Positions 12,196 through 58,247 of a stretch of 64,000 nucleotides of DNA are shown piece after piece. The DNA lies in assembly GCF_007741515.1 (NCBI RefSeq), contig NZ_CP036263.1:992001-1056000 (forward strand), in the 5' to 3' direction. A model generated the notes under the pieces. That model did no database searches. It was not told where the DNA came from and worked only from the letters and a program-made list of their open reading frames with translations. The first letter of the stretch is position 1, and each line of letters begins with the position of its first letter. Origin of the DNA: Adhaeretor mobilis. Its GTDB lineage: Bacteria > Planctomycetota > Planctomycetia > Pirellulales > Lacipirellulaceae. Position numbers and translations under genes: made by a program.

Positions 12196-13887
12196 TCAGT
12201 TGCCGGTTGGCAGCGGGATGCTGATGCCGTCCTTCTCAAGCTGGTCTCTCACCCACTGAAAACGCTGGTAGGCCGAGAGGGTGAGCGGCCCGGTGTAGGT
12301 CTCGCTCTGCAGCTTGCGCGGCGGATACTTGACGTAGGTCTTCATCTTATCCTGCACAGCTTGGCTGATCGTGACCATCGTCCAGGTGCGCTCGGTGTAG
12401 TTGTTCATGAAGATGTCGTAACGCTCTTGCGGATCGGCCCAGAGGTCGAAGATCTGGGGAACGGTGGCGACATATTTTTCCGCACCCTTCCAGCCGAGAT
12501 TGCTATCGACCGCGAGGCCGCCGGTCGCCTGACCGTTGTCGCCGCGCAGGTTGAAGAGAGCCTTGTAGTTGCCGACGCGAATCGCTCCCGGGGAGAGTTC
12601 GTTCTCGGTGTAATAGAACCACTGATTGCGAGGGCACTTTCCGGTGCCGGTGAGGACCGGGGTCATGTCGTAGCTATCGAAAATAATCGGCTCCCCTTCG
12701 CGGTCCTTCTCTGGCAGTTTCTCACCCGCGACGGAGGCGAAGGTGGCCATCAGGTCGAGGCCTCCGATGATGTCGTGGTTTTTCACGCCAGGCTTGATCT
12801 TGCCAGGCCAAACGGCGATGGCAGGAACGCGGTTGCCGCCTTCGCGGACGGTGCCCTTAGTACCACGGAACGGAGTGTAGCCAGAGTCAGGATAGACGTC
12901 CTGCCAAGCACCGTTGTCGGTCGTATAGAAGACCAGCGTGTTGTCGGCCATGCCGGTTTCCTTCAGCTTGTCCATGATGCGACCGATGCGTGTGTCCAGT
13001 TCGACCACCGAATCCGCGTACTTCGATTTCGACATCGATTTGTGCTCAAATTCGGGAGCCGGCATGTTCGGCTGATGCAACTTCATGAAGTTCGCGTTGA
13101 TGAAAAACGGCTCGTTCTTGTCTTTGGCCGCTTCGTCGAGGAATTCGATCGTCGCCTTCTCAACGTAACTGTCGAAGTACGGGATGCCGACGACGCCATC
13201 AGGGTAGTTGACGCCCTCCAGGGTGACGTTCTCGTTGGGCTTATCGACGTACTGGCCATTGATTTTGAAGTCCTCCACCGCCTTCTCGCCAGCCTTGCCG
13301 GAAAGCGAGCCGATGGTCACTTTCTGGAACATCTCGCGCAGTTCCGTGGGCATGTCCGGGAACCAGGTTGGATCGGCATAGGTGTAGGCGTTGAGGTGAT
13401 ACAGACCGCAATACTTCATCACGTCGTAACCTTGTGCGTTTGGAAGCGCGTAGTCGGACTCACCAAGGTGCCACTTGCCGGTGAAGTAGGTCTTGTAACC
13501 ACCCTTCTTGAGAACGGAAGCCAAGGTCCATTCCGCCTTGGGAAGTCCGCCGCCTTGGCCCTGGAAGGCTACGGTGGTCATGCCGCTGCGATTGGGGATG
13601 CGGCCGGTTTGCATCGCGGCACGTCCGGGTGTGCAACTCGGCTGGGCGTAGAAGGAAAAGAACGTCATGCCCTCGGCCGCCAGCTTGTCGATGTTCGGGG
13701 TCGGCATGCCGCGTCCCTTGCCACCGCCATACGGCCCGAGGTCGCCATAACCGGTGTCGTCGGAAACGATCAGCAAGATGTTCGGCTTCGATTGCTGTGC
13801 GTGCGCCGGGACGATTCCGCCCAAGATCGTAAGGAGAGTCAACAGAAACAAACTGGCCCAGCTAAATCTATGCATTTGGTAACTCAT
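12196..13887 (-). CDS. Exported type I arylsulfatase
   Basis: The 563-residue protein starts with a signal peptide ending PAHA. The alkaline-phosphatase-fold metal site begins NILLIVSDDTGYGDLG. The sulfatase signature is CTPGR (Cys85 when started at 13887) followed by AAMQTGR: the Cys of C-x-P-x-R is converted to formylglycine by a separate maturase not in this window. Further marks are GKWHLGE and TTDNGAWQDVYPDSG, which supply the active-site Lys/His and the Asp-Asn pair, and a C-terminal strand region. It hydrolyses sulfate esters, presumably from algal or mucin-like polysaccharide. Starts at 13902 and 13929 are also possible. The gutted second sulfatase lies just upstream on the same strand. 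Confidence 0.92.
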   Translation of the reverse strand: MSYQMHRFSWASLFLLTLLTILGGIVPAHAQQSKPNILLIVSDDTGYGDLGPYGGGKGRGMPTPNIDKLAAEGMTFFSFYAQPSCTPGRAAMQTGRIPNRSGMTTVAFQGQGGGLPKAEWTLASVLKKGGYKTYFTGKWHLGESDYALPNAQGYDVMKYCGLYHLNAYTYADPTWFPDMPTELREMFQKVTIGSLSGKAGEKAVEDFKINGQYVDKPNENVTLEGVNYPDGVVGIPYFDSYVEKATIEFLDEAAKDKNEPFFINANFMKLHQPNMPAPEFEHKSMSKSKYADSVVELDTRIGRIMDKLKETGMADNTLVFYTTDNGAWQDVYPDSGYTPFRGTKGTVREGGNRVPAIAVWPGKIKPGVKNHDIIGGLDLMATFASVAGEKLPEKDREGEPIIFDSYDMTPVLTGTGKCPRNQWFYYTENELSPGAIRVGNYKALFNLRGDNGQATGGLAVDSNLGWKGAEKYVATVPQIFDLWADPQERYDIFMNNYTERTWTMVTISQAVQDKMKTYVKYPPRKLQSETYTGPLTLSAYQRFQWVRDQLEKDGISIPLPTGN

Positions 13888-13976
13888 ATTCAGGTCCACC
13901 ATCTTAGGGAGGTGGCGGACCCTTAACACCGAAGGGTCTGCCGAGAAAAGTATAGCTACAAATCAGCCTGCGGAGC

Positions 13977-14323
13977 CTACTGACCTGGACTGGCGTACTG
14001 GATCTTATCCAGGACCTTACCAAGACTCAGGCTGGAACCGGTGGCAGGTGGAAACTCTTTCAAGCTTGCCATCTTCTTCGCAATGACCGCTTTCGCAGGC
14101 TCCATCAAGAACACGCGGTCGACCATCCATTTCAGGTACATCTCCGACTGGCTGCTGAATCGCTCATAAGGGTCTTGTCACTTTGCTGAGCAAGTGCACC
14201 ACTTGTGAAAAGCGAGAGAGAGAACAGGGCTGCGAGACCAACAAGAAATGTCGCTGCAACATACCAGCCATAGGAGCTCCTATTGATTAGGGTGGTGACG
14301 AAGCAGAAGAGAGAGCCCCGCAC
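13977..14323 (-). pseudogene. Gutted sulfatase gene: signal peptide joined to C-terminal tail
   Basis: A 63-codon frame from 14323 encodes a signal peptide (YGWYVAATFLVGLAALFSLS, then SGALAQQ). It ends at about 14130, but another frame continues without a gap as ERFSSQSEMYLKWMVDRVFL, then MEPAKAVIAKKMASLKEFPP, and stops at TAG 13977-13979. That second part is the typical C-terminal end of bacterial arylsulfatases (xxYxxWxxDRxFxxxPAxAxVAxxxxSxKEFPP). The whole catalytic domain, more than 400 residues in a normal sulfatase, is absent and the junction is out of frame. I read this as a former sulfatase gene removed by an internal deletion. It sits between an intact sulfatase and a divergent LysR gene. 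Confidence 0.72.
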
Positions 14324-17673: not shown

Positions 17674-17722
17674 TTCATGACTCCCGGTAAGGGACGGTTG
17701 GATTCTCTAGAGTCTACCAACC

Positions 17723-17886
17723 AGTACTACAGCGCAGGGTAAGTAGCCACGGATTTAGGTTGAAAACAATCGCTGAAAAGGAATGACGTTCCTGCAAGCA
17801 GCTATTCGCTGGAGATTCCGTTGAATTCATCCGTGAAATCAGTGTCATCCGTGGCTAAGTATTCTATGACCCTGCGCTGTAGTACT
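17723..17886. repeat. Inverted-repeat element between two secreted-protein genes
   Basis: The 18-base arm AGTACTACAGCGCAGGGT at 17723-17740 is repeated in perfect inverted form at 17869-17886. A second pair lies inside it: TAGCCACGGAT at 17744-17754 and ATCCGTGGCTA at 17847-17857. The right arm carries about ten extra bases between the two pairs. Next to it is the phrase ATCCGTGAAATCAGTGTCAT, a repeat family of the CACGGAT type that I know as dispersed in many unrelated bacterial genomes. No coding capacity is seen. It may be a non-autonomous mobile element or a repetitive extragenic palindrome. Confidence 0.75.
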
Positions 17887-18131
17887 AGAGCTGCTTACCC
17901 AATTCTAAATGCCCCCAGCAGCCTCATAAGCAACTTCGCATGCAATAGGCAAATTGCCGTTTGTGACGCAGGGCAAAGTGTCCTTCGGCGGTCGCAATTG
18001 GGAATATTCGCGGCTTGGGTCGCGTCCCGTTAACCTTAAAGTCGTCGGATAAGGACAGCGGCCTCGGGGCATGGTAGAATGCCCCCTTATCGAGAACTCA
18101 TCGCGCACCTCCTTTCGGCAGAGCCATTCCC

Positions 18132-52403: not shown

Positions 52404-52471
52404 TTAGCCGCCGACCTTGGTCGGCGCGGGGTTGGTACCCAAGCCGAGCGCCGACCAAGGTCGGCGACTAA
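52404..52471. repeat. Inverted repeat with 24-bp arms between the DUF1549 and DUF1501 genes
   Basis: The 24-base arm at 52404-52427 (TTAGCCGCCGACCTTGGTCG then GCGC) matches the reverse complement of 52448-52471 at 23 of 24 positions. Each arm is itself a smaller hairpin, GCCGACC-tt-GGTCGGC and GCCGACC-aa-GGTCGGC, so the transcript could form either two small stems or one long one. The spacer is 20 bases. Its place between the two genes of a likely operon suggests an effect on transcript stability or readthrough, but it may be a mobile repeat. Confidence 0.8.
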
Positions 52472-56492: not shown

Positions 56493-57665
56493 CTAGGACC
56501 GTAGCTCGGACGAAGAAATATCCTCGCGGAATTCCTCAGCGGTCACTTCGTCGCACAACTCCAGCAGGGTAGGGGGGAGGGTGAGATCGCTGAGGGTTTG
56601 GAATTTTCCGTCGATCACTCTTCCAAAGACGAGGAAGCGGCAGCCGGCTGCTTCGATCATCGCAATGGCTTCCTCGGTGGCGGCCTCGCTTGCGTAGTAA
56701 TTCGGGTCGGCGATGCGGAGGAGGGTATCAACACCTACCACGAAGCAGACTTCCTCGTTGAACTCGGCCTTCTCAACGAAGGTCGGGAGAGTGCTGACTT
56801 TTACGAACCGATCCCTATCAACGGCATGAATCGCAGCAATGCGTTCTGCGTGCGTCAGGCAATCCAACGGCGGTTTGTCGACGTTGTTAATCGCTAGTTC
56901 CCAAGCCAGCGGCTCGCCAAGCTTTCGTTCGGCGACTTCTGCCATTCGCAAATGTCCACTATGGAGTGGATTAAAGGAACCTGGGAATACTAACTTTGGC
57001 CAGCTGGGTATTCTATCTGGGTCCATTTCCGGTGCGCGAACGGCCATCTCCTGGCAGTCTTCTAGGATTAGCTCCGACCATCTTCTGGTGGCCACCTGTT
57101 CTTTTGGCGAAATCCTCTCGCCAATTCCCATTGAACTCTCCATAGCTTCATCGAGGTCAGCATGTGATGCCTCGCACGCCTCAGCGAGAACACTAATAAC
57201 GAGGCTCGCTGCGAGTGTTTCTTCTTCCACCCGCTGACGAGAGGAGCTGAGTTCGAGATGAAACGTACGCGTGAACGCTCCCGATTGCACCGCCACATGC
57301 ACTCGATGCGCGCCCCGCTTGGGCCGATTGGTCGCCAGACTTGCCGTGCAACCCAGGCCGAGAAGTTTCAGCGGGTCAGCCTCGGGAGCCAACTCGCGCG
57401 CACGCATCCAGGCGGCCATGGCCATTGCGCGAGCGGTTGCCTCGCTGCAAGCTTGGTCGGGTGTGCCGCCGATCCACTGGCAGAGGGAATTGTGTGAATA
57501 GGGCACCACGGCTTCCAGCACGGTGCGCGAGGCACCGGGTGTTTTCACGAGTGCCGCCAGCGCACCGCTGCCGCCAGTCGCGGCCAGCACGGTTTGGAAC
57601 TTACTGGCGTGAATTGCTTCGACCACCGGTTGCCAGAGTTCGTCGAGTGGTTTGGTAGGTTCCAA
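56493..57665 (-). CDS. CinA-like domain fused to NMN-adenylyltransferase-like domain
   Basis: 390 residues. Residues about 8-165 resemble the CinA/PncC amidase domain: VLAATGGSGALAALVKTPGA, SRTVLEAVVPYSHNSLCQWI, then GLGCTASLATNRPKRGAHRV, ordered as in PncC, but the SCTGG serine of the amidase is replaced (here AATGG). Residues about 222-390 are a nucleotidyltransferase domain: FPGSFNPLHSGHLR (HxGH at 235-238), CFVVGVDTLLRIAD and, near the end, DISSSELR, like the ISSTxxR signature of NMN/NaMN adenylyltransferases. The likely role is in NAD synthesis or salvage: the second domain would adenylylate NMN or NaMN, while the first may be a regulator or a diverged deamidase. It converges with cutA. 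Confidence 0.8.
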   Translation of the reverse strand: MEPTKPLDELWQPVVEAIHASKFQTVLAATGGSGALAALVKTPGASRTVLEAVVPYSHNSLCQWIGGTPDQACSEATARAMAMAAWMRARELAPEADPLKLLGLGCTASLATNRPKRGAHRVHVAVQSGAFTRTFHLELSSSRQRVEEETLAASLVISVLAEACEASHADLDEAMESSMGIGERISPKEQVATRRWSELILEDCQEMAVRAPEMDPDRIPSWPKLVFPGSFNPLHSGHLRMAEVAERKLGEPLAWELAINNVDKPPLDCLTHAERIAAIHAVDRDRFVKVSTLPTFVEKAEFNEEVCFVVGVDTLLRIADPNYYASEAATEEAIAMIEAAGCRFLVFGRVIDGKFQTLSDLTLPPTLLELCDEVTAEEFREDISSSELRS

Positions 57666-57738
57666 TACTTGTCCTTTAAAAATCAGCCGCGAGTGGAGAG
57701 GTCTGGTTGTATTACGCCGTAGGCGTTGCGTAACTTAG

Positions 57739-57788
57739 CCCAGGGTTGCCCGATTCGGAGCTTTAGCGACGAAACGGGCAACCCTGGG
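57739..57788. repeat. Modular hairpin, copy 1
   Basis: A stem of 19 bp with one mismatch: left arm 57739-57757 (CCCAGGGTTGCCCGATTCG), right arm 57770-57788. The loop is GAGCTTTAGCGA. The base CCCAGGGTTG and the loop are shared with the copy at 57867-57916, while the upper stem differs. It lies in the divergent region between the fusion gene and the acyltransferase gene. Confidence 0.85.
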
Positions 57789-57808
57789 TTCGAGACCATA
57801 GACAAACC

Positions 57809-57852
57809 CCGTCGGCGACCGAAATCGCCTAGGCGATTTCGGTCGCCGACGG
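57809..57852. repeat. 44-bp perfect palindrome
   Basis: A perfect inverted repeat of 21 bp per arm with a two-base centre (TA): left arm 57809-57829, right arm 57832-57852. Left arm begins CCGTCGGCGACCGAAATCGC. It lies exactly between the two oppositely oriented modular hairpins. As DNA it could extrude as a cruciform; as RNA it would form a very stable stem. Confidence 0.92.
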
Positions 57853-57866
57853 AATTATGCAGGTTT

Positions 57867-57916
57867 CCCAGGGTAGCATCCAGTGTCGCTAGGGCTCCGC
57901 TGGATGCAACCCTGGG
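57867..57916. repeat. Modular hairpin, copy 2, inverted relative to copy 1
   Basis: A 17-bp stem with one mismatch: left arm 57867-57883 (CCCAGGGTAGCATCCAG), right arm 57900-57916. The loop contains GTCGCTAGGGCTCCG, which is the reverse complement of CGGAGCCCTAGCGAC; copy 1 has CGGAGCTTTAGCGAC, so the two copies lie in opposite orientation. The right flank (TTAATTGCGTAATACC) is the inverse of the left flank of copy 1 (TATTACGC ... TTA). Confidence 0.85.
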
Positions 57917-58247
57917 CTTAATTGCGTAATACCTTTGGCATAGTTATCACCCAATCAATCCCTTGGCGATCCTCCTCGGACTTCCACGCTTCTTCTATTC
58001 AGTGTTCACACAAGACAACATGGCTCGGGGAACTGTTGCCGTTTTGCCACACGCACGCGGAATCATGCAAATTGAGTGTAATGTATTTCGCACTCCTCAA
58101 GCGAGTGGCCTAGCTTTAAGTGTGCTGCTTGGGTCTCGACCCGATGGCGGCACGCGTGTTGCTTTCTCTCTAGGCCGTAGGCGAACTATTGCCTGGAAGA
58201 GCATGCACACCTTTTCGTTCATTTTGCTCTTCTCACAAGAATTCGCC

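Follow-up and report, generated by a model that had tools for sequence, protein, structure and literature searches.

The feature described here lies in a 64,000-nucleotide stretch of the Adhaeretor mobilis genome (hereafter the window), between two divergently transcribed genes, with a CinA/cytidylyltransferase-like gene (56493–57665, minus strand) on one side and a GNAT gene, assigned by Pfam, on the plus strand on the other. The initial annotation had described two hairpins here with a common base and loop and unrelated upper stems, and both are indeed present, one on the plus strand (57739–57788) and one on the minus strand (57867–57916), with the second inverted relative to the first as had also been stated, since CGGAGCNNNAGCGAC, the loop pattern, has just two occurrences in the window, and these are in opposite orientations. 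Both hairpins are built on the base CCCAGGGT(T/A)GC...GCAACCCTGGG. The left one combines the constant base CCCAGGGTTGC with a variable upper stem and the apical part CG-GA-GC-TTTA-GC-GA-CG (57756–57771, plus strand), and the right one repeats this base and apical core around the upper stem GCATCCAG/CTGGATGC, such that foot, base and apical loop are common to the two and the upper stems are unrelated, each of them paired. The foot of the left hairpin is the trinucleotide TAG directly 5' of it (57736–57738, plus strand), and that of the right hairpin (57917–57919) reads AAG on the minus strand, a variant of TAG/CAG. Further out, at the element boundaries, sit two small hairpins, ACGCC-GTA-GGCGT on the left (57714–57726, plus strand; conserved in the family described below) and ATGCC-AAA-GGTAT on the right (57929–57941, minus strand; one mismatch). 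Between the long hairpins is a perfect palindrome of 44 bp with no spacer (57809–57852, no strand assigned), previously noted with arms of 21 bp, which in fact measure 22 bp.

Taken together, the two window hairpins are the mirror-image ends of one gene-less element of 230 bp (57713–57942, no strand assigned), an inverted pair of composite ends whose bounds we set to correspond to those of 18 complete relatives from a genome of the same genus (G001). An imperfect inverted repeat (57713–57770 / 57885–57942, 71% complementary) contains both hairpins. Folded as single-stranded DNA, the 230-nt unit reaches −81.8 kcal/mol against −37.7 ± 3.7 in shuffles (z = −12; 0/200), and the two hairpins and the palindrome are each significant when folded alone (z of −9.6, −6.0 and −8.9). 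In this fold, what had been called a loop core is the end of the stem, where a four-base loop caps a symmetric internal loop of GA/GA with GC pairs closing it, and, going by established nucleic-acid chemistry, GA against GA in the apical core would form tandem sheared G.A pairs. The palindrome is private to the window copy, where it occupies the place of a longer conserved interior in the 315-bp relatives, and a DNA search for it as an independent repeat gave only chance-level partial matches elsewhere.

The surroundings of the element were compared among relatives. In the six relatives checked, the CinA-like gene neighbours the GNAT gene, their starts lie 191–413 bp apart versus 583 bp here, and the covariance model introduced below (R1) found no match in these six spacers; in G104 the CinA-like gene has an inverted pair on its opposite side. 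The spacer comparison fits an insertion of the window element in the lineage of the host genome. No exact empty site was obtained, because divergence from the relatives is too great (in G001, protein identity is 64%); in a comparison of G104 with G112, the flanks were likewise too diverged and the downstream genes differed. Elsewhere in the window, an imperfect inverted-repeat unit that is unrelated to the element and about 170 bp long (17715–17890; TACTACAGCGCAGGGT ... ACCCTGCGCTGTAGTA, with an inner GCCACGGAT...ATCCGTGGC) is possibly another small mobile element, and a nested hairpin between genes, whose outer arms match perfectly over 19 bp (52404–52471; TTAGC-CGCCGACCTTGGTCGGCG...CGCCGACCAAGGTCGGCG-ACTAA), resembles a further REP-like repeat whose foot would be TTAG.

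The element belongs to a dispersed family. A DNA search revealed related inverted pairs in the host genome at 911.0 kb and 4103.7 kb, and less similar pairs at 4970 kb and at 1092 kb. Exact patterns gave counts that are misleadingly low, with three matches for the loop pattern because the loop varies and one match for the strict base pattern because the sequence varies. R1, a covariance model built from 9 ends of the host genome, all from gene-less copies, finds 26 ends there at E<0.01 and 18 at E<1e-7, 9 of these outside the model set; complete pairs include 2212550–2212858 and 2095285–2095597. Across the order, R1 matches (E<=1e-5) occur in 28 of the 118 genomes sampled, with 41 ends in G001 alone. 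A plasmid search gave no match. The 18 complete gene-less copies of G001 are 313–318 bp long, with sharp boundaries in unrelated flanks; all start with TAC save two that start with TTC, and they finish with GTA or ATA. Information at these boundaries is at most 0.38 bits per position in the flanks and rises to as much as 2.0 just inside. Interiors of the G001 copies share nested inverted blocks (GCGACCGAGC...GCTCGGTCGAT and CGAGGTCGCAA...TTTCGACCTCG) that the window copy lacks. The family thus consists of gene-less inverted pairs with dispersed copies and defined ends, as REPINs and MITEs do. Two further observations concern related material: in the flanks of the G001 elements (L302–L319), A is slightly favoured four and five bases beyond the boundary, which may reflect a preferred target, and three other genomes of the order (G074, G106 and G033) hold many inverted Acido-Lenti-1 pairs of nearly constant total length (~195 bp), which look like additional families of homogeneous elements without a gene.

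The initial annotation had proposed a repeat family under structural selection. In the close family, with 27 distinct upper stems, 91% of positions are paired compared to 58% after permutation (maximum 72%), including covarying series such as CGATCA/TGATCG, CGACCA/TGGTCG and CACCCA/TGGGTG. A wider set of 110 distinct hairpins with the CCCAGGGT base, drawn from many phyla and scored over the first four upper pairs, gave 73% of cells as Watson-Crick versus 35% when the 3' arms were permuted (maximum 44%). The proposal is supported by these dispersed ends with their paired, covarying stems, and the non-complementary stems that would have spoken against it did not appear. The apical GA-NN-NNNN-NN-GA core is present in 45 of 47 family hairpins (57 listed minus ten duplicates read from the opposite side), and in 23 of the 110 distinct hairpins of the wide set as opposed to 1.5 in shuffles (maximum 7); because only those 23 from other taxa show it, the core is not universal.

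A candidate partner emerged from the genes that carry ends of the same type; the initial annotation had asked whether an IS200/Y1-like transposase is linked. The host genome has four genes with the motif Y-x3-Q-x2-HH, and all four lie between inverted composite ends, with, on each side, a small hairpin, a short spacer, a long hairpin with a TAG-type foot, a spacer and a small hairpin before the gene, and the mirrored order beyond it. The four proteins (150–151 aa, with invariant Y115, Q119, H122 and H123, DHVH and WQ) bear the full signature of Y1 subclass 1.2 (Y-x3-Q-x2-HH, the HUH motif DH[IV]H, WQ, about 148 aa), and 4/4 match PF01797. They pass the NCBIfam IS200 model NF033573 (77.4 against a cut-off of 55), and the partner is thus a Y1/HUH transposase as in IS200/IS605. 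Among proteins of solved structure, those nearest in sequence are ISHp608 TnpA and other transposases of the IS200 type related to it.

The association between this gene and the hairpins holds across the order, where 59 of the 118 genomes carry the subclass 1.2 gene in 1–5 copies each. Inward-facing AGCC-hairpins occur on both sides within 350 bp at 50 of 71 such loci, compared with 0–2 of 68–70 control windows placed 700–1400 bp off, and when the foot is left unforced there are 1.44 hairpins per flank near these genes versus 0.32 far away. At the hairpins flanking these Y1 genes the commonest feet are TAG (74 of 210) and CAG (31 of 210), with a variable fourth base. None of the other Y1 loci tested in the host genome has flanking hairpins (0/9). 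R1 itself matches both gene flanks in two genomes, G088 (3612176+/3612803− around 3612282–3612734) and G066 (13476+/14101− around 13588–14040), and its matches occur in 25 of the 59 genomes with the gene versus 3 of the 59 without it (p=1e-6, uncorrected for relatedness). The ends nearest to those of the window element around a gene are found in G001 and G088, and because no host Y1 gene carries closely matching ends, the partner of the window element may be lost or may act in trans. Outside the order, the gene was present in all 12 genomes tested, and within 845 kb surveyed around CCCAGGGT hairpins of other phyla, strong subclass 1.2 matches lie about 0.15–0.7 kb from a hairpin; hairpins flank both sides at 8 of 30 loci there, i.e., a looser link between gene and hairpin, and in Prevotella P5-108 they stand about 250 bp off the gene, facing other elements. 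At one Desulfovibrionales locus (L073, 3150–4200) a single subclass 1.2 gene is surrounded by several consecutive hairpin ends, as would arise if elements had landed side by side.

These ends have a counterpart in Rfam. RF01687 (Acido-Lenti-1, of type sRNA) matches the left end of the window element at 26.6 bits (E 0.0015), below the Rfam cut-off of 37, and reaches that cut-off at three places in the host genome (37–54 bits). The pair 82021−/82627+ encloses the Y1 gene at 82.1–82.6 kb, the match at 5887325 adjoins the Y1 gene at 5887.4 kb, and the best pair, 2101599−/2102210+, scores 54 bits at each end (span 2101599–2102255). This last pair encloses about 560 bp without a recognisable gene and has a further CCCAGG-type hairpin inside. 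Matches to RF01687 occur in 47 of the 59 genomes with the subclass 1.2 gene versus 8 of the 59 without it (p=1.4e-13, uncorrected for relatedness), and neighbouring matches are oriented '-+' in 27 cases, against 3 and 3 in other orientations and none '+-', and are therefore read as the two ends of one element. The published architecture of Acido-Lenti-1 (PMC2864571) likewise runs, from the inside out, through a long hairpin, a spacer starting CUA and a small CC-NNN-GG hairpin, with a CCUAG base where the window copy has CCCAGGG. Acido-Lenti-1 is therefore the same end structure as the hairpins that flank Y1 genes, with which it co-occurs, and what has been filed as an sRNA gene is here read as the end of a DNA transposon. 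In the freely accessible literature searched, we found no link of Acido-Lenti-1 to transposases; one paper lists it as an RNA and another speculates on a regulatory role. A 2026 study of Tannerella (PMC13298647) tentatively takes its matches as regulatory RNAs.

We interpret the window feature as very probably a non-autonomous, MITE/REPIN-like element whose inverted hairpin ends are recognised in single-stranded form by a subclass 1.2 IS200-like HUH/Y1 transposase. In IS200/IS605 and REP systems, Y1 enzymes recognise single-stranded DNA hairpins and cut near the foot. Each end comprises, from the boundary, a small hairpin, about 9–10 nt, the TAG/CAG foot and a long hairpin. By analogy, exposure of the strand, as at replication, would let the hairpins fold; a transposase made elsewhere would bind the foot, the base and probably also the apical G.A core; and it would then cut and rejoin at the element ends. 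The data directly establish the anatomy of the ends, the family with its sharp boundaries and covarying stems, the association of like ends with the transposase gene at its loci and across genomes, and the lack of the element in the corresponding spacer of relatives; we infer single-strand recognition, cutting, mobilisation in trans and what the foot and the G.A core do. Because the upper stem would need only to pair, its sequence could drift or be exchanged and the base and apical core would stay fixed. We propose more tentatively, as a possibility that we rate somewhat below even, that the transposase reads two parts of the hairpin that lie apart from each other (the TAG/CAG-CC(C/T)AGG base and the apical tandem G.A core), that the covarying stem is an exchangeable spacer swapped as a module between elements, and that the entire Acido-Lenti-1 family represents ends of DNA transposons and not an RNA.

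The initial annotation had also offered an RNA-structure element, and the hairpins acting as a small RNA or regulatory leader is the best of the alternatives, given that Rfam files their relatives as sRNA, that RF01687 scores as it does here and that the stems covary; we nonetheless consider it unlikely and unsupported, since the ends are paired in inverted fashion, flank a transposase gene and have sharp boundaries in unrelated flanks, and since the window copy lies between divergent genes without a fixed gene partner. A classical class 2 RAYT REPIN, driven by a GTAG-recognising transposase, would share the inverted hairpin pair, the many gene-less copies and the Y1 partner, but is quite improbable: the partner fails the NCBIfam RAYT model NF047646 (27.4 bits against a cut-off of 80) and passes the IS200 model, the foot reads TAG/CAG, its fourth base varying, where GTAG would be expected, and the host's other Y1 genes have no such ends. 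The suggestion of a RAYT/REP-like, non-autonomous element thus stands in its outline, because genome copies (about 25 ends in the host at E<0.01, not the two in the window alone), covarying stems and a linked Y1 transposase were all found, and gives way in detail, the inverted gene-less pair being REP-like and the IS200-like partner and the foot departing from the classical RAYT and GTAG.

Slightly less probable again is that the element is a MITE belonging to a DDE transposon of the IS630/Tc1 type, which would duplicate TA when it inserts. Nearly all 18 G001 copies begin and end with TA, 16 of them as a direct 2-bp repeat, but this is ambiguous as a target duplication, which IS200/IS605 elements do not make, because the inverted repeat TAC/GTA itself yields TA; direct repeats of 3–4 bp occur in no more than 2 of 18 copies, and Y1 genes are flanked by ends of this architecture. 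An intergenic position and strong hairpins might also suggest a transcription terminator or chance structure without mobility, which is highly improbable for a copy that lies between divergently transcribed genes, lacks a T-run and belongs to a dispersed family, whose existence refutes chance local structure, although termination may be a secondary role at other family copies.

Among known systems, the partner corresponds to subclass 1.2 as described in PMC6006769, with DHVH, WQ, Y-x3-Q-x2-HH, a conserved C-terminus and about 150 aa. That study reports the subclass as generally without terminal hairpins, gives REP as 'no' and places it mostly in Cyanobacteria and Bacteroidetes, whereas here hairpin ends are the rule (the 50 of 71 loci above) and half of the genomes sampled from a planctomycete order carry the gene. 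REPs and REPINs with their RAYTs (PMC3116915, PMC2817692) are alike in having two inverted hairpins, a foot on the 5' side, no gene, many intergenic copies and a Y1 enzyme elsewhere, and they differ from the present elements, which have TAG/CAG rather than GTAG, an extra outer small hairpin, an IS200-like enzyme, longer hairpins and exchangeable stems. IS200/IS605 elements share the HUH/Y1 family and subterminal hairpins, but here each end contains several hairpins and the two ends form an inverted repeat. As far as the accessible part of PMC3733652 goes, its TIRtrons (TIRYT) also have Y1 genes between inverted repeats, some self-complementary and some with repeat families, and many Y1 genes of R. 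baltica have flanking repeats; because these are described there, parts of the end architecture may already appear in that work, whose accessible text has RAYT-like proteins and assorted TIRs where we describe a composite TAG-hairpin end and a link to Acido-Lenti-1.

With these observations, a functionally blank but widely spread transposase subclass gains a likely substrate, and Acido-Lenti-1, a 'structured RNA' without known function since 2010, would become the end of a DNA mobile element, which counsels caution against taking its matches as regulatory RNAs. The covarying DNA hairpins also form a natural library that helps to find which parts a single-strand transposase reads.
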